Of a stretch of 40,933 bases of DNA, positions 12,282 to 39,766 are shown one piece after another. This DNA is from a virus. The stretch's first letter is position 1. Every line of letters begins with the position of its first letter. The DNA lies in the IMG/VR virus record IMGVR_UViG_3300025904_000006, positions 1 to 40,933 of that record. The stretch is one strand, 5' to 3'. The position numbers and the translations under genes were made by a program. The notes beneath the pieces were generated by a model. The model saw only the letters and a program-made list of their open reading frames with translations. It ran no database searches and was not told where the DNA came from.

Positions 12282-12656
12282 ATGCGCCGCTTGCGCGACA
12301 TCAAGCGGCATATGCGCGGGAGCCTGCATCAGGAGATGTCGGTTCCCGCGCTCTATATTCCCGCGCCATCTGCGACCCCGGTGGAAGTCACCGTGCGGGT
12401 CTGGCGGAAGCGCGAAGACCCGGCAACGGGTGAACTGCAGTCGATGCCCGGCGCGGCCCAGATGATGGTCAGCGAAGACCGGCTGCGGTTCGACCTCAGC
12501 GAGATTCCCACGATCCGCCGCAACGCGATCGTCTCCGTGGAAGCGGGCGAAGCGTACCGGGTCGACCACGTCTACCCCGAAGATCTCGGCTACCAGACCG
12601 CACGGGTTGTCCCGCTGTCGGCGGATGAGGCTTCCGGCCTCCCGGTGGCGGCATGA
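12282..12656 (+). CDS. head-tail connector, gpFII-like
   Basis: A 124-residue protein in the FII position. The C-terminal half (VSEDRLRFDLSEIPTIRR, VSVEAGEAYRVDHVYPED) resembles the gpFII pattern in which a low-complexity or basic lead precedes a beta barrel. gpFII joins gpW on the capsid side to the tail terminator. Assignment rests on position, size and a loose pattern. Starts three bases after the preceding stop. Confidence 0.6.
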   Translation: MRRLRDIKRHMRGSLHQEMSVPALYIPAPSATPVEVTVRVWRKREDPATGELQSMPGAAQMMVSEDRLRFDLSEIPTIRRNAIVSVEAGEAYRVDHVYPEDLGYQTARVVPLSADEASGLPVAA

Positions 12657-13273
12657 GCGGTGAAACCTACATCGTCGCGATGGAAGGGGTAGCAGCCACG
12701 GCTACCCTGGACACGATGGCCGGTGACGTGAAGCGCGCTGCGATGCGCGCCGTCAACTATGCTGCCGGTAAGGCGCAGACCCGTGGCCGGAAGAAGATCG
12801 CCGCGCAGGTCAACCTTCCCTACGCCTATCTCGCCGGGATGGATAGCAGCGGACGCGCTCGGCTCGGCATCACGAAGAAGGCGTCGATCGATGATCCGGA
12901 AGCGGTCATCACAGGCAGGCATCGGCCGACCAGCCTGGCGCGGTTCATGACATCGAACACCAAGCAGGGAGTCACCGTCCAGGTGAAGCCCGGCGTCGCC
13001 ACGCGCAGCAAGCGGATGTTCGTCATCCGGCTGCCGCAGGGCAAGACGTTGACGGAAACCAAGGCGAACCTGGGACTGGCGATCCGGCTGCGTCCCGGCG
13101 AGCAGGTTGAGAACAAGAAGCAGATGGTCGCGATGGGTCGCGGTCTCTACCTCCTCTATGGAGTCAGTGTCGACCAAGTCTATTCCGACGTTGCTGCGGA
13201 TGACACGGTTGACGCCTCGGCTGATCTGGAGCGCGAGTTCTTGCGCCTGATGAAGCTAGGGGACGCGATATGA
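12653..13273 (+). CDS. minor tail protein gpZ-like
   Basis: A 206-residue protein of the GPZ family (prophage minor tail protein Z), which works at the head-proximal tail end. Typical parts are AAMRAVNYAAGKAQTRGRKKI, with many basic residues, and SLARFMTSNTKQGVTVQVKPG in the middle. ATGA overlap with the preceding gene and with the HNH gene behind. Confidence 0.8.
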   Translation: MSGETYIVAMEGVAATATLDTMAGDVKRAAMRAVNYAAGKAQTRGRKKIAAQVNLPYAYLAGMDSSGRARLGITKKASIDDPEAVITGRHRPTSLARFMTSNTKQGVTVQVKPGVATRSKRMFVIRLPQGKTLTETKANLGLAIRLRPGEQVENKKQMVAMGRGLYLLYGVSVDQVYSDVAADDTVDASADLEREFLRLMKLGDAI

Positions 13274-13869
13274 GCGACTTCAGCAACGCAGTGCAGCGCT
13301 GCCGTCCTCACCGTGAATTGGCTCGCCGGGCAGGTGAAGCCTACTACTTCACCGGTTGCCCCTGCAAACACGGTCACATTGCGAAGCGTCACACGGTTGA
13401 CGCGTCTTGTGTCGAATGTCGCTGGGTATTCAAGGAGGCCTACCGCGAGGAGGCCGCGCAGTACGCCCGCGACCGTCGCGCATCGATGACGCCCGAAGAA
13501 AAGGCTGAGCACGATGCGCGGCAGGCTGAGTATCGTCGAAACGAGCGACTACGCAATCCGGAGGGGGTTCGCGCCCGCGAGCGCGTCCACGGTCGCCTGA
13601 AGCGCCAGCGGTATCCTGAGCGCAAGCTGGCCGAGACCCGCGCTCGCCAAGCGGCAAGAATCCAACGCACTCCCTCATGGGCCGACCTACGGGTGATTCG
13701 CGACTTCTACGAGAATTGTCCGGAAGGTCACGAGGTTGACCATATCGTCCCGCTGCGCGGCAGGACTGTCTCCGGGCTGCATGTCATCGAGAACCTTCAG
13801 TACCTGCCGAAGCAGGACAATCGCCTGAAGGGTAATCGGTTCGACGAAGAATGGCAGGAGGCCGCCTGA
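13270..13869 (+). CDS. free-standing HNH endonuclease
   Basis: A 199-residue protein with an N-terminal zinc-binding pattern (GCPCKHGHIAKR, then SCVEC, residues 29-50), a long Arg/Glu-rich helical middle and a C-terminal HNH nuclease. The nuclease shows EVDHIVPL with His158, Asn175 in IENLQYLP and Asn184 in QDNRLKGNRF. It is inserted in the tail operon between gpZ-like and gpU-like genes, overlapping both neighbours by a few bases. Such genes are usually homing-type mobile nucleases, though some assist packaging. A homing role is inferred. Confidence 0.88.
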   Translation: MSDFSNAVQRCRPHRELARRAGEAYYFTGCPCKHGHIAKRHTVDASCVECRWVFKEAYREEAAQYARDRRASMTPEEKAEHDARQAEYRRNERLRNPEGVRARERVHGRLKRQRYPERKLAETRARQAARIQRTPSWADLRVIRDFYENCPEGHEVDHIVPLRGRTVSGLHVIENLQYLPKQDNRLKGNRFDEEWQEAA

Positions 13870-14036
13870 TGCCCCGCAACATCGATTCCGGCTTCGTCCA
13901 ACTGGGTTGGTTCGACCTCACCGCCGAGGATGCGCTGGACTTCGACCTGCCGCAGGCTGTCCGCACCAACTATGAGGTGTTCGTCGTCGGCTTCTGGGGC
14001 TTCGGAATCACTCTCTGCGTGAGGGTCAAACCGTGA
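13869..14036 (+). CDS. small hypothetical protein
   Basis: A 55-residue protein starting at ATG 13869 (TGATG overlap with the HNH stop) and ending in a GTGA overlap with the next gene. It reads GWFDLTAEDALDFDLPQAV, then a hydrophobic stretch (VFVVGFWGFGITLCVRV). Only the tight coupling supports it as a gene; no family recognised. Confidence 0.5.
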   Translation: MPRNIDSGFVQLGWFDLTAEDALDFDLPQAVRTNYEVFVVGFWGFGITLCVRVKP

Positions 14037-14593
14037 CCGACTATCCTGAAACCCTGCCCTTCAAGCTGCGCGCCATGCGTGCCGTGACCGCTGCACTGAA
14101 GGAAGTCACGCCGGATAACGGCTACGTCTGCGACCTGGCGGACTTCGACCCCGGCGACGGTGCCATGATGGAGCGCGTCTACCGCGGCCGCGACACCTTC
14201 GGACCCGGCGACCCGGAGACCATGGTGTCAGTGCTCGAAGGCGTCGAACCCGGTGAGGATGTCGCCGAGGCGCCGGTCAACACGCCGATCGCCGGTTACT
14301 GGTGGTCGATCCTCGTGCAAGGCTGGGTGCCTGATGACCGGGATCACCCGACCGACCCTGCTTATCTGCTGCTGGCTGATGTGCGGCAACGCTTGATCGC
14401 TGAGAAGTCGCGCAAGCTGCCCGGTAGCCATCAGCCAGATCCCTTCGGCCTCGGGCCGGGAAAAAATCGCGTGGAGGACATTCGGGTTGGCCCCGGCGTC
14501 GTCCGCCCACCCGATAGGTTGTCCGACAAGGCGTGGTTCTGGTTACGACTGGAACTGCGAATCGTCGACAACGCCGCCGACCCCTACGCCTAA
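14033..14593 (+). CDS. tail terminator, gpU-like
   Basis: A 186-residue protein in the gpU slot between gpZ-like and tail tube genes. It begins with a helix (PFKLRAMRAVTAALKEV), has the hydrophobic strand ITGYWWSILVQGW-like segment (about 85-97) and the helix AYLLLADVRQRLIAEK, and ends with the strand FWLRLELRIV, compatible with the gpU alpha/beta fold. Tail terminators cap the tube and join it to the head. Start is GTG 14033. The call is mainly positional. Confidence 0.6.
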   Translation: MTDYPETLPFKLRAMRAVTAALKEVTPDNGYVCDLADFDPGDGAMMERVYRGRDTFGPGDPETMVSVLEGVEPGEDVAEAPVNTPIAGYWWSILVQGWVPDDRDHPTDPAYLLLADVRQRLIAEKSRKLPGSHQPDPFGLGPGKNRVEDIRVGPGVVRPPDRLSDKAWFWLRLELRIVDNAADPYA

Positions 14594-22943: not shown

Positions 22944-23171
22944 ATGGCCTTCTTCGTCGCACTAGGCATCAGCCTTGCGATCAGCATCATCTCCTATCTC
23001 ATCATGCCGAAGCCGAAGGCTCCCAAGCCCGAGGCGGCGAAGGATCTGGAAGACCCAACGGCTGAAGCCGGTCGCCCGATACCGGTCGTGTTCGGCACGA
23101 TAACGGTCAAGGGTCTCAATGTCCTGTGGTTCGGGGACAAAGGTAAGCGCACCTACAAGGTGAAGGCATGA
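22944..23171 (+). CDS. small membrane-anchored tail-tip assembly protein
   Basis: A 75-residue protein. It has an N-terminal membrane segment (FFVALGISLAISIISYLIM), a Lys/Pro-rich linker (PKPKAPKPEAAKD), then a conserved part (DPTAEAGRPIPVVFGTITVKG). I recall this type from tail-tip clusters just before the hub gene. Role in hub assembly or membrane contact is inferred. ATGA overlap with the following gene. Confidence 0.7.
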   Translation: MAFFVALGISLAISIISYLIMPKPKAPKPEAAKDLEDPTAEAGRPIPVVFGTITVKGLNVLWFGDKGKRTYKVKA

Positions 23172-28958: not shown

Positions 28959-29945
28959 ATGATATCGGTAGTTGCAAATTATGCGCGCGAGTGGACCGCT
29001 GTTGAAAGGCGCACCGAGTTCGTCGACCCCCGCAGCATTCCTGCCGCGGCCACCGGAGCGATCCTGCTGTTGCTCGCGCTTGTGAGTTTCGCCGCGACGA
29101 ATTTTACTCTGATTCCTACCAGGATATATCCGGGCTTGCTGCTATATGCTTGGCTCATGCTCGGCGGGGCGATGTCCCGCAAATACGGGATGCTTCGAGT
29201 TTCGGCTTGGCTCACCAGCATCGCAACATTGACTGTAGTATCGGCTGCAGCCCTGATGCTGATGGTAGTTGCGACAGCATGGGCGGCTCCGTTCCAGGAC
29301 TCAGTTCTCATCGAAGCGGATCGGGCTATGGGCTTCAAGTGGTTGGACTTATACAACCTATTCATGGCCAACCCTGTTATGTTTGACATAAACAGTGCTC
29401 TGTATCGCCTCATTGTGCCCCTACCCTACGTTATGATGACTGTCCTGGCATTCAGCGGTGATTACCGAAGGCTGTGGGTGTTGATGCTGGCCTGGGGTGT
29501 ATGTCTGGCATTCACCATAGCGATATACCCCCTGTTCCCTGCGGTCGGACCCTATGAGTATTTTCACATTGATCAGACGACCGCTCCCAAGGCGCTTAGC
29601 GCATACCCTTGGCTGTTTGATGAAAAGATCGCAGCTATCCGAGACCATGGCCAACGAGTGGTCGATCCTAAAGACTTTATCGGTTTAGTCTCGCTGCCGA
29701 GCTTCCACATGGCTTCGGCAGTTTTGTTAGCGTGGGCGGCTCTAACTATTCGCTGGATCGGAAAACCGACAGCCGCCCTTAGCTTAGGTATGGGCCTGGC
29801 CGCGGCGATCAGCGGTAGCCACTACCTCATTGATCTAATCGCCGGCGCAGGTTTGTCGATCCTATCACTATGGATTGCGATGAGACTGACTCCGGTGAAG
29901 ACGGAGACACCTCGACGTCGCCACGGTAGCTTCTCCTGCTACTGA
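28959..29945 (+). CDS. PAP2 / inositolphosphotransferase Aur1-like membrane protein
   Basis: A 328-residue integral membrane protein with about six membrane segments (such as ATGAILLLLALVSFAA and LMLMVVATAWA). The PAP2 motifs are visible: SLPSFHMASA (about 246-255) with the first catalytic His, and SGSHYLIDLIAGAG (about 284-297) with the second His and Asp. The spread and the aromatic YPLFPAVGPYEYF loop suggest the PAP2_3/Aur1 subgroup that moves head groups or phosphate on lipids. Strong ribosome site AGGGGGAG. It looks like a cargo (moron) gene placed after the fibres; a lipid-altering or exclusion role is inferred. Confidence 0.78.
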   Translation: MISVVANYAREWTAVERRTEFVDPRSIPAAATGAILLLLALVSFAATNFTLIPTRIYPGLLLYAWLMLGGAMSRKYGMLRVSAWLTSIATLTVVSAAALMLMVVATAWAAPFQDSVLIEADRAMGFKWLDLYNLFMANPVMFDINSALYRLIVPLPYVMMTVLAFSGDYRRLWVLMLAWGVCLAFTIAIYPLFPAVGPYEYFHIDQTTAPKALSAYPWLFDEKIAAIRDHGQRVVDPKDFIGLVSLPSFHMASAVLLAWAALTIRWIGKPTAALSLGMGLAAAISGSHYLIDLIAGAGLSILSLWIAMRLTPVKTETPRRRHGSFSCY

Positions 29946-30194
29946 TTAGGCGAGGTGGCAACAGCGTTCGGGTTTAAAGATCGCAATCCGTTTCACCTCT
30001 CTGTTGCCCCGGTCCATATGGAAATGATCTAGAAATTCCCATTCGTCTTTGCGGCTGCACATCTCATACGTGCATGTTGTTTCCCGGTGCGGCGTACGCA
30101 TCCAGAACGGCTCATACTTTGGATCGCGCGGGTTGTCCCGGCTGTCACCGAACCAGTCTGGATGCAGCCAAAACGCGAGCGACTCAGTAGCCAT
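29946..30194 (-). CDS. small accessory protein, unknown
   Basis: An 82-residue protein, last gene of the leftward operon, abutting the PAP2 gene end to end. GGAGG just before ATG 30194 fixes the start inside a longer open frame. It is rich in Trp, His, Asp and Arg (FWLHPDWFGDSRDNPRDP, EFLDHFHMDRGNRE) with four cysteines. Family not recognised. Confidence 0.65.
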   Translation of the reverse strand: MATESLAFWLHPDWFGDSRDNPRDPKYEPFWMRTPHRETTCTYEMCSRKDEWEFLDHFHMDRGNREVKRIAIFKPERCCHLA

Positions 30195-30555
30195 CGCTGC
30201 CTCCATGTGGTTGCTGGTCAAACTGCCGCAGCGCTTCGGATATGCAGTTTTTGCAGAGATCCTGCCATCTGGCATCGTCATCTGGCTCAGATCCGATACG
30301 GACGACGGCCTCTACGTCAGTTTCACAGTGGTCACATTCGAGCCTAGCCCATGACGGGTTCCCTATGATGGCTGCCATGTCCCCAGCGCTGCACGTTTCC
30401 AGATCCAAAGCAGATAGCGCATCCCGCATTTGACCGAAAGTCACATTGCGGTTCCAATGCACCGGCACATCGGCTCTGACGCCACCCCATGCTTTCATGA
30501 AGCGGCTTACAGCGGTGCGTATCTCCTCGCGAATTGTCACAACCCGCATCGCCAT
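30184..30555 (-). CDS. accessory protein with paired-cysteine motifs
   Basis: A 123-residue protein with ribosome site AGGGAGG. The middle holds RLECDHCETDVEAVV, and a later DLCKNCISEA gives a CxxC...CxxC zinc-ribbon pattern. The front (REEIRTAVSRFMKAWGGVRAD) is helical. A small zinc-binding protein; target unknown. Overlaps the following gene by 11 bases. Confidence 0.68.
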   Translation of the reverse strand: MAMRVVTIREEIRTAVSRFMKAWGGVRADVPVHWNRNVTFGQMRDALSALDLETCSAGDMAAIIGNPSWARLECDHCETDVEAVVRIGSEPDDDARWQDLCKNCISEALRQFDQQPHGGSDGY

Positions 30556-30571
30556 CTCAACCTCCCTATTG

Positions 30572-30598
30572 GGTAGCGACCTCGGCTACCTATTTTTC
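30572..30598 (+). terminator. rightward terminator-like hairpin
   Basis: GGTAGC (30572-30577) and GCTACC (30585-30590) with a 7-base loop, followed by TATTTTTC. It would stop rightward transcription running antisense into the leftward operon. Confidence 0.45.
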
Positions 30599-30852
30599 TC
30601 TGGACCTTCGGCAACGATGGCCATGTTGCTGTGCTGAACGATTTTCCACCAATCATATTGGTCAGCCTCAAATCGCCTGGAAACCTCTTCGCGAAGTTCC
30701 TCAACCGTGTCAGCGGAACATTTCAGATCCTCGGTCGCCTCACCCGGATAATAGGTGTTGCCTTCATAGAGCAGAAACGCCTTAACCGGCGGCCGATTTC
30801 GTTCATCCTCGCCAAGGTCGTACTCGTAAGGATCGTACTCAACGATTGCCAT
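30586..30852 (-). CDS. small acidic accessory protein, unknown
   Basis: An 88-residue protein starting at ATG 30852 with GGAGG seven bases ahead and a TGATG overlap with the gene before. Acidic and Tyr-rich at the start (VEYDPYEYDLGEDERNRPP), then TVEELREEVSRRFEADQYDWW. No family recognised. Confidence 0.65.
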   Translation of the reverse strand: MAIVEYDPYEYDLGEDERNRPPVKAFLLYEGNTYYPGEATEDLKCSADTVEELREEVSRRFEADQYDWWKIVQHSNMAIVAEGPEKNR

Positions 30853-31046
30853 CACTCAACCTCCACCGTTGCCAGCCGCGCCGCGCTAATGTGGGTGACG
30901 GCCACGCTACCAAATAGCGGATCATCCGGATGCCGCTGACCACCCCACGATGATACAGCATCCTCCGCAAATTTCCTCAACTCAGGCATCGTCACGCCTT
31001 GCTCGACCGTTCCAACGATCGTCAGGACCACCATGGTTCGGTTCAT
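30852..31046 (-). CDS. small accessory protein, unknown
   Basis: A 64-residue protein (MVVLTIVGTVEQGVTMPEL, then AEDAVSSWGGQRHPDDPLF), alpha/beta in look. It overlaps the nucleotidyltransferase gene by ATGA and the following gene by TGATG, so it belongs to the same operon. Function unknown. Confidence 0.62.
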   Translation of the reverse strand: MNRTMVVLTIVGTVEQGVTMPELRKFAEDAVSSWGGQRHPDDPLFGSVAVTHISAARLATVEVE

Positions 31047-32014
31047 GGTTGCACCTGTTCCAGATAGAGTCTCAGCACCATCGCATCAGCCAGTGGGCGA
31101 TCGCTTGCTTCGGGCAGGATCGACACCGCACTGGTGGCCTGCACCTGCGCCACAAGCTGCTCCAGCAGTTCGGCCGTCTGCGCGTATGTCACGAAGCCCG
31201 ATTTGATGAACAGCAGTTCCTCGGCGTCCGGTCGCGGGAAGGTGATTTTACCGGTTTCGAGCAGTTCGATAGCCTGCCGCGCGACACGCACCGCATGACT
31301 GACAGCCTTCCAGTCGATGCCTTCATTCGACGCGGCAGCCCGCGCCCGTTCGCCGTAGTTCTGCCAAACCTTTTCGTACACCTTGACCGCCTCGCCGAGA
31401 GCCACCGTCTCCGGCATTTTCCGGTCGCAGCAGACGACGTGGATGCAGGCGTCCCCGCTGAGATGCGGGATGGCCTCGAACGACATATGCTCCTCAGCTT
31501 CAACTAAGGGTCGCAGCTTGGTGAACACCGTGCCAAGTTTCACATCGGGACCGTAAACGCCAACGTGATGCTCCAGTTCTGATAGGAGTCGCTTCACTGC
31601 GTTCATCCGGCTGCCCTTGATGCCGTACTTGGCAGCCTGGCGCACACAGTAACCCACAAAGCCCTTGCACTGGCGATTCAGCAATTGCGCGCCGACCCCA
31701 CGAACGGCTTCCCACAGTGGGTCGGCCTCCAACGGCGGCGCGAACAGGATCTCGGTCGCGACCGTGTCGCCCTTCATCAGCATGTCGAAGAACTTTTGCA
31801 GCGAGAACGATTGATCGTCGATCGCGTCGGCAGTGTTCTTTCCGCCCAGTTTTGACTCGACGTTACGCTGAATCACTTCTTCCGGTGACTGGAGCAAAAT
31901 CGCCCGGCCGCTCGGCAAATGTACGCCTTTGAAATCCTGGTCGGAGGATGCAGTGGCGGTGCCGTATAGGTGCGAGCCATGCTGCACCCGCACCAGTTGC
32001 CTGACAGCCTTCAT
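31043..32014 (-). CDS. RlaP-like nucleotidyltransferase
   Basis: A 323-residue protein of the polymerase-beta superfamily. Near the N-terminus it shows HGSHLYGTATASSDQDFKGV (residues 12-31), with the GS signature and the metal-binding Asp pair (25 and 27). This pattern is that of the PF10127/RlaP nucleotidyltransferases found in bacteria and large phages. A helical C-terminal part follows. It may add nucleotides to RNA, protein or a small molecule; substrate unknown. ATG 32014 makes an ATGA overlap with the HD-domain gene, so the two are co-translated. Confidence 0.82.
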   Translation of the reverse strand: MKAVRQLVRVQHGSHLYGTATASSDQDFKGVHLPSGRAILLQSPEEVIQRNVESKLGGKNTADAIDDQSFSLQKFFDMLMKGDTVATEILFAPPLEADPLWEAVRGVGAQLLNRQCKGFVGYCVRQAAKYGIKGSRMNAVKRLLSELEHHVGVYGPDVKLGTVFTKLRPLVEAEEHMSFEAIPHLSGDACIHVVCCDRKMPETVALGEAVKVYEKVWQNYGERARAAASNEGIDWKAVSHAVRVARQAIELLETGKITFPRPDAEELLFIKSGFVTYAQTAELLEQLVAQVQATSAVSILPEASDRPLADAMVLRLYLEQVQP

Positions 32015-32595
32015 CGCGGTTCCTTCCCCAACTGTTTCCACCCGCCTTCGAGAAACATCTTCGCAGCTTCCCACAGCCGCGTGTCACCCTTGTCCAGCAT
32101 CGGCAACAGCAAAGCCTTTTCCTTTAGATAGACCACAGCGAAGCCCGGATCGTGACGAACGATAGACTGCGTGTTGGAGCACAGATCAGCCAGTTTGATC
32201 GTCTGCGCGTCAGCGGGCGACACAGCGCTGTGGAGCCGGTCGATTTCCTTCCGCGCGGCCCGGTTGCCGTGTTCCGTCTTGCTAACATCGGTCAACCACG
32301 CGACTAGGTCAGCGATGCGATCACCGAACATCTGCCGCACATCAGCTTCCGTCGCCGGCGTGTCCTCAACCACGTCGTGTAGCAACGCGGCCGCAATCAT
32401 GGTAGCATCGTCGGTGACGCTGGCCACCCAATCGGCCACCTCGAAGCAGTGAACCACATACGGCTCACCGGTGTATTTGCGCTTCTGGTCGCCGTGCATC
32501 ACGGTGGCATATCGCGCGGCTTCCAGGATCAGCGAGTCGCGCGGCCATGGTTCACCGGCACCGCAGCAGCCTTCGGGGCGCAGTATCTGGGTCAT
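32011..32595 (-). CDS. HD-domain small alarmone hydrolase-like protein
   Basis: A 194-residue stand-alone HD domain resembling the (p)ppGpp hydrolase half of RelA/SpoT and MESH1. Seen: KRKYTGEPYVVHCFEVADW (His49), AALLHDVVEDTPAT (His73, Asp74, Glu77-Asp78), and TIKLADLCSNTQSI (Asp137). These match the metal-binding and catalytic positions of that family. No synthetase domain is present. If active, it could lower alarmone levels in the lysogen or infected cell. Ribosome site GGGAGG, start ATG 32595, TGATG overlap upstream. Confidence 0.85.
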   Translation of the reverse strand: MTQILRPEGCCGAGEPWPRDSLILEAARYATVMHGDQKRKYTGEPYVVHCFEVADWVASVTDDATMIAAALLHDVVEDTPATEADVRQMFGDRIADLVAWLTDVSKTEHGNRAARKEIDRLHSAVSPADAQTIKLADLCSNTQSIVRHDPGFAVVYLKEKALLLPMLDKGDTRLWEAAKMFLEGGWKQLGKEPR

Positions 32596-32792
32596 CAACG
32601 CCTCCCGTTCATTTCGATGCTGTGCAACAGGCCGAGCAGCGACGTGTTACCCGCCCACGCATTGTCGCCGAGATTGCTTTCGAGGACATCGGCGATGCGC
32701 TTCAGCGAAACCGCCATGGAGGTGGCCGCCGCCGTCAACGGGTCACGACAGTCGCGGGCTTCTTCCTCGAACTTACCTGCAAGATCGTTCAT
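32595..32792 (-). CDS. small helical accessory protein, unknown
   Basis: A 65-residue helical protein (MNDLAGKFEEEARDC, TSMAVSLKRIADVLESNLG). It overlaps both flanking genes by a few bases. No recognised family; shape is compatible with a small regulator or antidote-like protein, but nothing shows that. Confidence 0.62.
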   Translation of the reverse strand: MNDLAGKFEEEARDCRDPLTAAATSMAVSLKRIADVLESNLGDNAWAGNTSLLGLLHSIEMNGRR

Positions 32793-33136
32793 GCCGCCAC
32801 CCCGCTGAACAGCTTCGCCACCGGCGAGTCGATGAACTCCGACGCAGCGACCTTCGCCATCTCATCAGCCGGCGACCAGCGAAACTTGTCGAGTTGCACG
32901 AGCACCGGTTCGCGGGCCGCGCCGTCAGGCAGTTCCTGCTTCACCCAATAGCCGCTCAGGGTCAGCACCTGGTAGGTCGACTTCGGTGGCGCCGTCGACA
33001 CGTCACGCATCAGCACGTGCGTTTCGTTGACTGACAGCACTTCCCAGAGCGTGGTAGCGTAGGCAACTCCGCAATCCATGCCGCCGTCGACCGGCAGCAC
33101 TGTGTAATAGTGATTGGCTTCGGGTTTGTTGGTCAT
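32789..33136 (-). CDS. accessory protein, unknown
   Basis: A 115-residue protein with ribosome site GGGAG. Beta-rich first half (HYYTVLPVDGGMDCGVAYA, THVLMRDVS, TYQVLTLSGYWVKQELP) and an acidic/hydrophobic tail. Not recognised. First gene after an intra-operon hairpin. Confidence 0.65.
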   Translation of the reverse strand: MTNKPEANHYYTVLPVDGGMDCGVAYATTLWEVLSVNETHVLMRDVSTAPPKSTYQVLTLSGYWVKQELPDGAAREPVLVQLDKFRWSPADEMAKVAASEFIDSPVAKLFSGVAA

Positions 33137-33163
33137 AAGTGACTCCCGCTGATTTCATCCTCG

Positions 33164-33185
33164 CCCCGGCCACTGTTGGCCGGGG
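33164..33185 (-). terminator. 8-bp hairpin inside leftward operon
   Basis: CCCCGGCC (33164-33171) pairs perfectly with GGCCGGGG (33178-33185) across ACTGTT. No T-run. It lies between the membrane gene ending at 33196 and the gene starting at 33136, so it may split the operon into two expression levels. Confidence 0.5.
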
Positions 33186-33195
33186 TCCGGTGACG

Positions 33196-33447
33196 TCAGG
33201 CTGCGTTGCTGTGTTTGATGGCCCAACGGTAGAGCGCTCGCGCGGGGAAGTACGCGGTGGCTACGGCCAGCATTACCGGCCAAAAGATGCTGCCGAAAAT
33301 GCTGCCGATCAGGAAACCTTCGGTGACGGTGTCGCGATCATTGTACCGGCGCCGCTCCATAGCTGGCACACCGAGCAACCCAAGCACAGTCGCCGCTATG
33401 ATGACGCCGACCGCCAGCCACCCGGTAATGAACAGGATTATACCCAT
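33196..33447 (-). CDS. small membrane protein
   Basis: An 83-residue protein with two membrane segments (GIILFITGWLAVGVIIAATV and GFLIGSIFGSIFWPVMLAV) joined by a charged loop (ERRRYNDRDT). The frame extends upstream inside the SPFH gene, but GGGAGG and the TGATG overlap set the start at 33447. It probably works with the SPFH lipoprotein before it. Confidence 0.72.
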   Translation of the reverse strand: MGIILFITGWLAVGVIIAATVLGLLGVPAMERRRYNDRDTVTEGFLIGSIFGSIFWPVMLAVATAYFPARALYRWAIKHSNAA

Positions 33448-34289
33448 CACTGGCCTCCCTGGACACAGGGCGCGGCCGCCGAGCAGTAGACAGTGGAGGG
33501 CATCGAGCCGTCCCACTTCTTCACCCATTCGTAGGCGACGATCTTCTGGTTGCCAGCGATGGCGTCGCCCCGGATCTTGATGGCGGCCGCGTCTGCCTGT
33601 GCTTTGATCGTCTGCGCTTCGGCCCACGCCTTGGCTTCGGCGACGCGAGCGCGACCTTCGGCTTCCTTCGTGGCGACCGTCGCCTGTGCCGCAATCGCAG
33701 CCTGCTCATTCTGCGCCCGAGCGTTGATGCGGTTCAGGATTGCACCCGGAATGCGGACAGGGCCGGCAAAATCGAGCTGGTCGATGTGGAGACCCAGCGG
33801 CTCAAAATACTCGCGGGCAATCTTCAGCGCGTTGCCGATGAGTTGGGTCTTCTTCGGCCCGTAGATTTCCTCGACCGTCATCGTCGAAGCCGCGGTCACC
33901 AGTGAGGAGCGAACCTTGTTGCGCAGCGGCCCTGCTAGGATGCCGTCCATATCGGTGCGGTAGGTCTGGAACAGCTTGGGGGCTTTGGTGGCATCCACGC
34001 GATAGGCCACGGTGATGTCGGACTGGACGATCAACCCGTTGCGATCCTGGAAGGAGAGTTCTTCGTTCTTCTCGTCGGAGCGCTGCCAGGTATAGTTGTT
34101 CACGAAGATCGGGTACTCGTAGACGTCGACACCGATCATCGTGAAATATGTCCCGACGCCGAGGGCGCGTTCCTGGACACCCGCGTCGCTGCCGTAGCGG
34201 TTCACCTTGACGCCGACATGGCCGGGATCGACCCGCGTACATGCAGCAAGGCTGAGTGCCATCATCGAAACTGCGATAATCTTCTTCAT
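33447..34289 (-). CDS. SPFH/band-7 domain lipoprotein
   Basis: A 280-residue protein. A lipoprotein signal (MKKIIAVSMMALSLAAC, lipid-modified Cys17) is followed by a band-7 domain: VDPGHVGVKVNRYG, RNGLIVQSDITVAYRVD and LAGPLRNKVRSSLVTAAS. A long Ala/Glu/Lys coiled coil (about 185-240) comes next, as in prohibitins and HflK/C. Such proteins form membrane rings that control proteases or membrane domains. ATG 34307 in the same frame is coupled to the preceding stop, but the signal starts at 34289. Flanked by small membrane genes on both sides. Confidence 0.88.
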   Translation of the reverse strand: MKKIIAVSMMALSLAACTRVDPGHVGVKVNRYGSDAGVQERALGVGTYFTMIGVDVYEYPIFVNNYTWQRSDEKNEELSFQDRNGLIVQSDITVAYRVDATKAPKLFQTYRTDMDGILAGPLRNKVRSSLVTAASTMTVEEIYGPKKTQLIGNALKIAREYFEPLGLHIDQLDFAGPVRIPGAILNRINARAQNEQAAIAAQATVATKEAEGRARVAEAKAWAEAQTIKAQADAAAIKIRGDAIAGNQKIVAYEWVKKWDGSMPSTVYCSAAAPCVQGGQ

Positions 34290-34303
34290 GGTCCCTGTTC
34301 TCC

Positions 34304-34501
34304 TCATTCACCGCGCCAGAGCGGTGCAATTGCTTTGATGAAACGGTAGTCGAAGTAGGCAGCGGCAAACGGCAGCATCACTGCCAGGATGAGCGCACCA
34401 TCGTTCTGCGTGTTGACCAGAGCCGGCAGGATCATTCGCGCCAGCAGCAGGTTGCCGATGATCACCGCTGCGCAGACCAGCAGGATCGCACCCTTTTCCA
34501 T
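34304..34501 (-). CDS. small membrane protein, first gene of leftward operon
   Basis: A 65-residue protein with two membrane segments (GAILLVCAAVIIGNLLLA and GALILAVMLPFAAAYF). The frame opens at 34531, but AGGGAG before ATG 34501 sets the start. Promoter and operators lie directly upstream. Likely partner of the SPFH lipoprotein. Confidence 0.72.
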   Translation of the reverse strand: MEKGAILLVCAAVIIGNLLLARMILPALVNTQNDGALILAVMLPFAAAYFDYRFIKAIAPLWRGE

Positions 34502-34526
34502 TTTCGAGTCTCCCTCAGTGATCAAA

Positions 34527-34580
34527 ATCACGAATCAAGTGATTATGGAATCACCCCCAACAAGTCAACCGTTAGTTGAA
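34527..34580 (-). promoter_or_regulatory. promoter and two operators of leftward operon
   Basis: Reading leftward: TTGACT (-35, 34568-34563), 17 bases, TAATCA (34545-34540; or CATAAT at 34547-34542 with 15 bases). Operator GTCAACCGTTAGTTGAA (34564-34580) overlaps the -35, and ATCACGAATCAAGTGAT (34527-34543) overlaps the -10. Occupancy of either would block the promoter. Confidence 0.62.
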
Positions 34581-34669: not shown

Positions 34670-35029
34670 ATGGCTTTCACCACCAATCTTTCGCTGCCGC
34701 TGACCTTCCTCGGCATCATCCCTTTCCGCAAGGCGATCGCCGACGCGTTCAACATCATCGACGCAGCCGTCGGTGAAGTATTGACCGGCAGCAAGACCCA
34801 CGACTTCGCGAGCGTTGCCGACGGTGCGCAGGCGACGACCACGGTTACCGTCACCGGTGCCGCGCTCGGCGACTTCTGCCAGGCCTCTGTCGGTGTCAAC
34901 CAAGCCGGCGTCATCCTGCACGCTTATGTATCAGCGGCCGATACGGTCACCGTCGTCCTGCAGAACGAAACCGGTGGCGCTGTGGATCTCGCGAGCACGA
35001 CCCTCTCGGTACTGGTCCGCAAGGCGTAA
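34670..35029 (+). CDS. small phage protein before lysis genes
   Basis: A 119-residue protein (AFTTNLSLPLTFLGIIPFRKA, then GAALGDFCQASVGVNQAGVILHA), beta-rich, like small trimeric surface or tail-associated proteins. AAAGGAG (34655-34661) fixes ATG 34670. First gene of the rightward unit. Family not named with confidence. Confidence 0.6.
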   Translation: MAFTTNLSLPLTFLGIIPFRKAIADAFNIIDAAVGEVLTGSKTHDFASVADGAQATTTVTVTGAALGDFCQASVGVNQAGVILHAYVSAADTVTVVLQNETGGAVDLASTTLSVLVRKA

Positions 35030-38866: not shown

Positions 38867-39766
38867 ATGGCTTCCGCTCTTTCTGCTCCGCATTTCCACG
38901 ACGAAGAGGCAGCTTATGCCTATGTCGAGGCTCGCGTCTGGCCGCAGGGTCCAGTTTGCCCGCATTGCGGCGGCGTGGATCGGGTCGGCAAAATGGGTGG
39001 CAAGTCCACCCGTATCGGCACCTACAAATGCTACCAGTGCCGTAAGCCCTTCACCGTGAAGATCGGAACTATCTTCGAAGCCAGTCATGTGCCGATGAAT
39101 CTCTGGCTGCAAGCAATGTATCTGATCGCGGGCAGCAAGAAGGGTATTTCCAGTAATCAACTTCATCGCATCCTTGGCGTCACCCTAAAAACCGCATGGT
39201 TCATGTCTCACCGTATCCGTGAAGCGATGCGCCAAGACAATGGGCCGCTAGGTGGCCTCGGTTCGATCGTGGAGGCTGACGAAACATTCATAGGCCGCGA
39301 GCCGGGCAGTGAAGTTAAGAACGCCTATCACCACAAAATGAAAGTACTGTCGCTCGTGGAGCGCGGCTCAGGCCGCGCCCGATCCTTCATCATCAATTCA
39401 GTGAAGCACGAAGAGATCATGCCGATCATCGCGACCAACGTCCGCAAGGAAAGCTATCTGATGACCGATGAGCATCACGCCTATCGTTTGGCGATCACGC
39501 GCTTCTTCGATCATAAGGTGGTAACTCACACTGCGGGCGAATATGTGCGCGGAAAATGGCACACCAACACCATCGAGGGTTATTTCAGCATCTTCAAGCG
39601 CGGTATGCGCGGTATCTACCAGCATTGCGCCAAGAAGCATCTGCATCGCTATCTTGCAGAATTTGATTTCCGCTACAGCAACAGGGTTGCTCTGGGCTAT
39701 AACGATAGCGACCGCGCCGACGTGCTGCTGAAGGGAATTGTCGGCAAGCGGTTGAAATATGCTTGA
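38867..39766 (+). CDS. IS1595-family transposase
   Basis: A 299-residue DDE-type transposase (ISXO2-like domain). The N-terminal zinc ribbon reads CPHCGG (26-31 region) and YKCYQCRKPFTV. A helix-turn-helix region follows (SSNQLHRILGVTLKTAWFM). Catalytic signatures are VEADETFIGRE (first Asp), MTDEHHAY (second Asp) and NTIEGYFSIFKRGMRGIY, with Asn/His-Glu replacing the third Asp as in this family. Full length, no frameshift, so it may be active. Confidence 0.95.
   Translation: MASALSAPHFHDEEAAYAYVEARVWPQGPVCPHCGGVDRVGKMGGKSTRIGTYKCYQCRKPFTVKIGTIFEASHVPMNLWLQAMYLIAGSKKGISSNQLHRILGVTLKTAWFMSHRIREAMRQDNGPLGGLGSIVEADETFIGREPGSEVKNAYHHKMKVLSLVERGSGRARSFIINSVKHEEIMPIIATNVRKESYLMTDEHHAYRLAITRFFDHKVVTHTAGEYVRGKWHTNTIEGYFSIFKRGMRGIYQHCAKKHLHRYLAEFDFRYSNRVALGYNDSDRADVLLKGIVGKRLKYA

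Follow-up and report, generated by a model that had tools for sequence, protein, structure and literature searches.

The DNA analysed here, referred to as the window, is the whole of IMG/VR record IMGVR_UViG_3300025904_000006, 40,933 bases in length. It carries an integrase gene after tRNA-Met, followed by packaging, head and tail genes, a lysozyme gene, an Rz-like gene and an IS1595 element, whose IS1595-family transposase lies at 38867-39766, close to the right end. A small AlpA/excisionase-like protein, judged by eye, is encoded after int at 1605-1802. No replication module, CI-like repressor or right attachment repeat (attR) was seen in the 40,933 bases, and for this reason the record is probably a prophage that is incomplete at its right end. 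Relatives of gene g (Table 1) occur in Novosphingobium and in Erythrobacter phages, which probably places the host in the Sphingomonadales.

Eleven minus-strand open reading frames, named a to k in order of transcription, run from 34501 to 29946 and form the leftward operon that an earlier sequence-only reading had described. That reading held that nearly all of the genes overlap, which is slightly generous: seven of the ten junctions are overlaps (b-c, 1 nt; d-e, 4; e-f, 1; f-g, 4; g-h, 4; h-i, 1; j-k, 11), and the other three are gaps of 14 nt (a-b), 59 nt (c-d) and 30 nt (i-j). Its description of the operon as unusual in composition stands for gene content and fails for base composition, as genes a to g (GC3 0.73-0.79) differ little from the structural genes (0.74-0.88); lower values were found in the distal genes h to k (0.56-0.65) and in the neighboring PAP2 gene (0.61). 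This PAP2_3-family membrane phosphatase gene (28959-29945) is convergent with the operon and ends one base before the operon's last stop codon. At the other side, opposite the operon promoter, a small gene at 34670-35029 resembles the C-terminus of tail-spike-like families (phrog_23388, 3e-13); it is conserved in three more distant relatives of the prophage (L100-L102), next to their lysis genes.

Profile matches support the domains that had been named for b (Band_7/SPFH, with a lipobox), f (HD_4, of the RelA/SpoT hydrolase type) and g (RlaP), and genes a and c are the small membrane proteins. The zinc-ribbon protein is j, which has the two CxxC pairs without a Pfam match and has one distant relative, in Pseudomonas phage Bitten. 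No relative of d was found in the phage collection searched, and profile searches assigned no family to c, e, h or k.

Table 1. Genes and regulatory features of the leftward operon (window coordinates)
Feature	Position	Strand	Description
gene a	34304..34501	-	65-aa membrane hairpin, loop motif PALVN; partner of b
gene b	33447..34289	-	SPFH/Band-7 lipoprotein, 280 aa, lipobox LAAC
gene c	33196..33447	-	83 aa, two hydrophobic segments
gene d	32789..33136	-	115 aa; 3' end conserved in L058
gene e	32595..32792	-	65 aa; L058 homologue 77% identical, longer (109 aa)
gene f	32011..32595	-	HD small alarmone hydrolase, 194 aa; module f+g
gene g	31043..32014	-	RlaP / T4 NrdC.11-type nucleotidyltransferase, 323 aa; module f+g
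gene h	30852..31046	-	64 aa; 89% identical in L058, directly after e there
gene i	30586..30852	-	88 aa; relative of T4-type trna.3 (phrog_1411, 1.5e-11)
gene j	30184..30555	-	123 aa, two CxxC pairs, zinc-ribbon-like
gene k	29946..30194	-	82 aa
f+g cassette	31047..32594	-	stretch replaced by 6 nt in L058
operator	34526..34544	.	perfect AATCAC-N7-GTGATT palindrome overlapping -10 of likely operon promoter
operon promoter	TTGACT 34568-34563; CATAAT 34547-34542	-	15-nt spacer; read from sequence

Operator control and the operon slot in related phages

The operon had been placed under the prophage operator, and the perfect palindrome that overlaps the -10 element of its likely promoter bears this out. 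The predicted promoter has a short spacer, 15 nt compared with a consensus of 17, and is absent from the promoter-scan list. When up to two mismatches to the 19-bp palindrome were allowed, the 40,933-base record held 8 sites compared with 1.14 expected, a number reached in none of 100 shuffles. The copies start at 223, 1532, 2247, 14006, 14609, 22880, 34526 and 34627. Those at 223, 14006, 14609, 22880 and 34627 lie just upstream of genes, whereas that at 1532 is at the end of int and that at 2247 is upstream of the structural block. The closest relative of the prophage, L058, shares the operator that precedes the tail gene at 22944 and has it between the same tail genes. Taken together, the sites look like a phage regulon of which the operon is a member; no protein that binds the palindrome was found in the 40,933-base record. 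A phage operator in this position would silence the operon in the lysogen and free it on induction or infection. This suggests that the operon acts in the lytic phase, and operator control argues against a constitutive defence of the lysogen.

L058 has one tail protein that is 96% identical to that of the prophage and a tail tip that is about 73% identical, and it carries a leftward operon in the same slot. There, the end of d is followed by e, and e directly by h, without f and g. The L058 junction reads AACGGGAGGCG-GTCGCT-ATGAACCGAACC, and the prophage has f and g between the same flanks, such that a cassette of about 1.55 kb stands in place of exactly 6 nt. Between h and the end of its operon L058 has different genes, with an acyltransferase-like gene where PAP2 would be; a small AlpA/excisionase-like protein, judged by eye, is also encoded inside the L058 accessory operon (L058:9233-9484). 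The more distant relatives share tail and lysis-side genes with the prophage; L100 has other leftward genes in the slot, and in L101 and L102 the slot is almost empty. The SPFH gene is in none of the L100, L101 and L102 records. None of c to k lies within 2 kb of the closest SPFH relative (L107, 76%), and the SPFH family (phrog_200) is absent from the phages with the closest HD/nucleotidyltransferase pairs.

We are therefore highly confident that the operon is a mosaic. It is an accessory ('moron') operon in a slot of variable content, with the tail-fibre genes of the prophage on one side and its lysis genes on the other, and it carries two conserved modules, f+g and a+b, among what appear to be small, fast-changing phage genes. 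A widespread lysogen module was also considered and rejected: across 401 genomes from the family to which Novosphingobium G001 belongs, phrog_388, the family of g, gave one strong match (E 3e-72) and 26 weak ones. The tail-tip protein matched 2 of the 401.

The hydrolase and nucleotidyltransferase genes

Gene f matched PF13328 (HD_4) at 1.2e-18 and Mesh1 (3nqw) at 2e-15, with the metal ligands H, HD and D and the ED pair aligned. Its product, of only 194 aa, has a RelA/SpoT-type HD domain and no synthetase domain, as expected of the Mesh1/SAH class, and on these alignments f is a predicted small alarmone hydrolase. It also shares 46% identity over 154 residues with PaSpo of Salmonella phage SSU5, including the HD, ED and KLAD residues. 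SSU5 PaSpo counteracts the toxSAS FaRel2 by taking off the pyrophosphate that the toxin installs on the tRNA 3'-CCA (PMC11559606), and PaSpo kept CapRel harmless during CapRel purification (PMC9712102).

Gene g matched RlaP (PF10127) at 3e-11, with 43.8 bits compared with a curated cut-off of 23, and matched phrog_388, the T4 NrdC.11 family, over its full length at 1.8e-73. The Pol-beta motif GS...DxD is present, and G13, S14, D25 and D27 are invariant in 8 homologues. Relatives are common, with tblastn matches in 1481 phage records. A sequence search of the PDB returned nothing convincing for g, and a fold search with its predicted structure gave weak matches, the best being HalB of Hailong (E 0.019). 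According to a summary of the work of Burroughs and Aravind (PMC7824862), RlaP is predicted to restore nucleotides at RNA ends before ligation. A complete RlaP system would also have an RNA ligase in the same genome. Neither an RNA ligase (PF09414) nor HAD_SAK_2 was found in the 40,933-base record, which may be incomplete; a ligase does lie near close relatives of g in L005, G007 and G008. With no RNA ligase seen in the record, g is termed RlaP-like here, and we stop short of proposing a full RlaP system.

The HD hydrolase and nucleotidyltransferase genes are joined elsewhere. In Novosphingobium L005/L018, genes for an ATP-dependent ligase core (PF01068), the HD protein and the nucleotidyltransferase overlap in that order, and in L007 the nucleotidyltransferase is followed by the HD protein and then by a HAD_SAK_2 RNA-repair phosphatase. 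These two carriers are unrelated phages, and the HD-nucleotidyltransferase overlap is 4 nt in both of them as well as at f-g. The order of the pair in L007 is reversed relative to the operon, which speaks for a functional link and against common descent of the arrangement. (In L007, the portal protein at 12629-14539, PF06381, also has a C-terminal Acb1 anti-CBASS domain in the same frame; PF23474, 5e-28.) An HD protein was found in 7 of 16 nucleotidyltransferase-carrying virus records, namely all five with the closest nucleotidyltransferases and two of about 195 kb; by a different search method, and thus only as a rough base rate, HD-type hydrolases occur in 350 of 50,697 phage records. By DNA similarity, the linkage records group into about five related lineages, so their count is not a count of independent events. 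No HD protein was found in the other nine of the 16 records or in three further nucleotidyltransferase phages (W01-W03), and HD proteins frequently occur in phages without the nucleotidyltransferase; the pair is therefore not obligate. In G007 and G008, the nucleotidyltransferase has an RNA ligase about 1 kb away, and G015 carries the nucleotidyltransferase, HAD_SAK_2, HD and ligase.

From this linkage we infer that f+g repairs RNA ends, which may be the 3' ends of tRNAs that toxSAS immunity has damaged. The product of f would remove 3'-pyrophosphate groups from alarmones and probably also from tRNAs whose CCA ends carry a toxSAS modification; g would then restore nucleotides missing from the healed RNA end, and translation could continue during lytic growth. 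Since neither an RNA ligase nor HAD_SAK_2 was found in the record, f and g would make up only part of a repair set, unless the host supplies the missing enzymes. As no ligase was seen, the pair most likely either mends the 3' end itself or relies on a ligase of the host. We lean slightly towards a function of f+g on RNA ends, and regard a specific action against toxSAS tRNA modification as a tentative proposal. If the link between alarmone hydrolase and RNA repair is true, it places phage small alarmone hydrolases in tRNA repair and allows the idea to be tested directly against toxSAS and tRNA-cleaving immunity.

The hairpin and SPFH lipoprotein genes

Gene b matched PF01145 (Band_7) at 1.1e-21 and phrog_200 at 6e-68. 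It combines the Band_7 domain with a lipobox, the Cys17 of which is invariant in 15 homologues. A sequence search of the PDB returned nothing convincing for b; its predicted structure, a low-confidence model whose fold class is clear, matches Erlin, prohibitin, stomatin and HflKC. Relatives of b were found in 554 phage records and in at least 564 IMG/VR stretches.

The gene directly upstream of the b homologue, in the position that a has here, encodes a protein of 60-97 aa with two hydrophobic helices in almost every one of 15 diverse phages (including P1-like RCS47, P88, SSU5, Schitoviridae, Fraca and a jumbo phage). In the case of RCS47, the two-helix partner gene (L075:2284-2520) is missing from the annotated features. 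These a-type proteins share a conserved loop, P-x-L-(I/V)-(S/N), whereas just 5 of 77 other small genes of the same kind of loci encode two helices. In a stricter test, hairpin and motif were found together at 52 of 78 IMG/VR loci, compared with 1 of 1395 control positions, and in 29 of 46 IMG/VR clusters formed at 80% identity. No description of the a+b pair was found in the literature; published mentions of phage SPFH genes go no further than suggesting a role with HflKC/FtsH (PMC10269572, PMC4936722).

Many a proteins have positive charges near both ends, which suggests a periplasmic loop, on the side of the membrane where b is expected. It is moderately probable that a and b form one complex. 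Together they may build a periplasmic SPFH ring or cage, in which b would be lipid-anchored and a would sit in the inner membrane as a hairpin, probably docking to b through its conserved loop. Such an assembly might modulate a membrane target such as FtsH, a holin or a DNA-entry channel, which is speculative. Recognition of the pair would turn hundreds of phage lipoproteins labelled just 'SPFH' into an assayable two-component membrane module.

Competing explanations and known counterparts

The eleven genes had been proposed to form one undescribed system that unites a membrane ring with the breakdown of nucleotide signals and an enzyme that adds nucleotides, with separate occurrence in relatives named as the finding that would count against it. 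A single, tightly packed operon with one operator speaks for such unity. The genes do occur apart, in L058, L100-L102 and L107, and the L058 arrangement in particular largely refutes the proposal, which we reject and rate as very improbable. A scan of b to j and PAP2 with PADLOC-DB models of known anti-phage defence gave no match at E 0.01; for b to j this is another point against a single system, and a defence-island reading was dropped on this result. The operon is an ordinary accessory locus, for which a role in host takeover or counter-defence is plausible. For f+g, tight packing is itself an alternative: f may have come to lie beside g merely through the close packing of early operons and may act on free alarmones only, lowering (p)ppGpp or (p)ppApp against the stringent response or toxSAS alarmones. 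Many phages have f-like hydrolases without the nucleotidyltransferase, and HD-alarmone hydrolases of jumbo phages are predicted to target alarmone (PMC7824862), but the two genes overlap in three phages, in both orders, and lie beside RNA-repair genes in two of these. We consider it possible, at the lower end of that word, that f acts in this way.

With respect to a+b, ring and hairpin could serve as a superinfection-exclusion device that stops the DNA of other phages from entering at the inner membrane. In E. coli, an Asp that follows the lipidated Cys is an inner-membrane retention signal, and b has this Asp in five phages of enteric bacteria. This signal, the pairing of a lipoprotein with a membrane partner and the wide spread of a+b in temperate and lytic phages alike are consistent with exclusion; Thr takes the place of Asp in this prophage's copy, however, and operator control would keep a+b off in the lysogen, leaving exclusion unlikely. 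Modulation of FtsH in the manner of HflK/HflC, affecting the lysis-lysogeny choice or membrane protein turnover, agrees with the fold matches of b to HflK/C-FtsH complexes and with the proposals for other phage SPFH genes cited above. Yet a+b is common in lytic Schitoviridae and jumbo phages, which make no lysogeny choice, and b falls far below the NCBIfam hflC equivalog cut-off (18.3 compared with 134.4 bits), a result on which the identification of b as HflC was rejected. We regard the FtsH explanation, too, as improbable.

The explanation that we prefer for the whole, a mosaic, operator-controlled operon in which f+g would repair RNA ends and a+b would form a periplasmic SPFH ring or cage, has in our estimate an even chance of being right. 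It retains the operon, the enzymes and the operator of the sequence-only reading, gives up their unity and adds the pairs a+b and f+g, which had been missed. In its most specific form, a small alarmone hydrolase and an RlaP-type nucleotidyltransferase would be a portable kit that repairs tRNA 3' ends against toxSAS/CapRel-type immunity, in an operon that also holds an unnamed, widespread two-gene SPFH complex; we offer this form with considerable doubt.

Among known systems, PaSpo of SSU5 resembles f in the identity and conserved residues described above, and the toxSAS-antagonist activity of f is only predicted from them; the SSU5 genome has no nucleotidyltransferase, whereas f is paired with g. 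Like members of the phage RlaP RNA repair systems, g exceeds the RlaP cut-off and has relatives that adjoin ligases or HAD_SAK RNA-repair phosphatases. Unlike them, it has an alarmone-type HD hydrolase as its partner and no ligase in the record. The T4 NrdC.11 family is matched by g over the full length, but the T4-like copies are annotated near thioredoxin and homing endonuclease genes, whereas g is paired with the HD gene in a temperate phage. With HflK/HflC and the SPFH-NfeD pair QmcA-YbbJ (PMC2636767), b shares the SPFH fold and a small membrane partner in the same operon. NfeD proteins, of 140-150 aa, contain several hydrophobic stretches and, in addition, a soluble beta domain (PMC2636767), for which a, at 65 aa, has no room, and a was rejected as an NfeD partner. 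HflK/HflC and QmcA have their own transmembrane anchor, whereas b is a lipoprotein instead.
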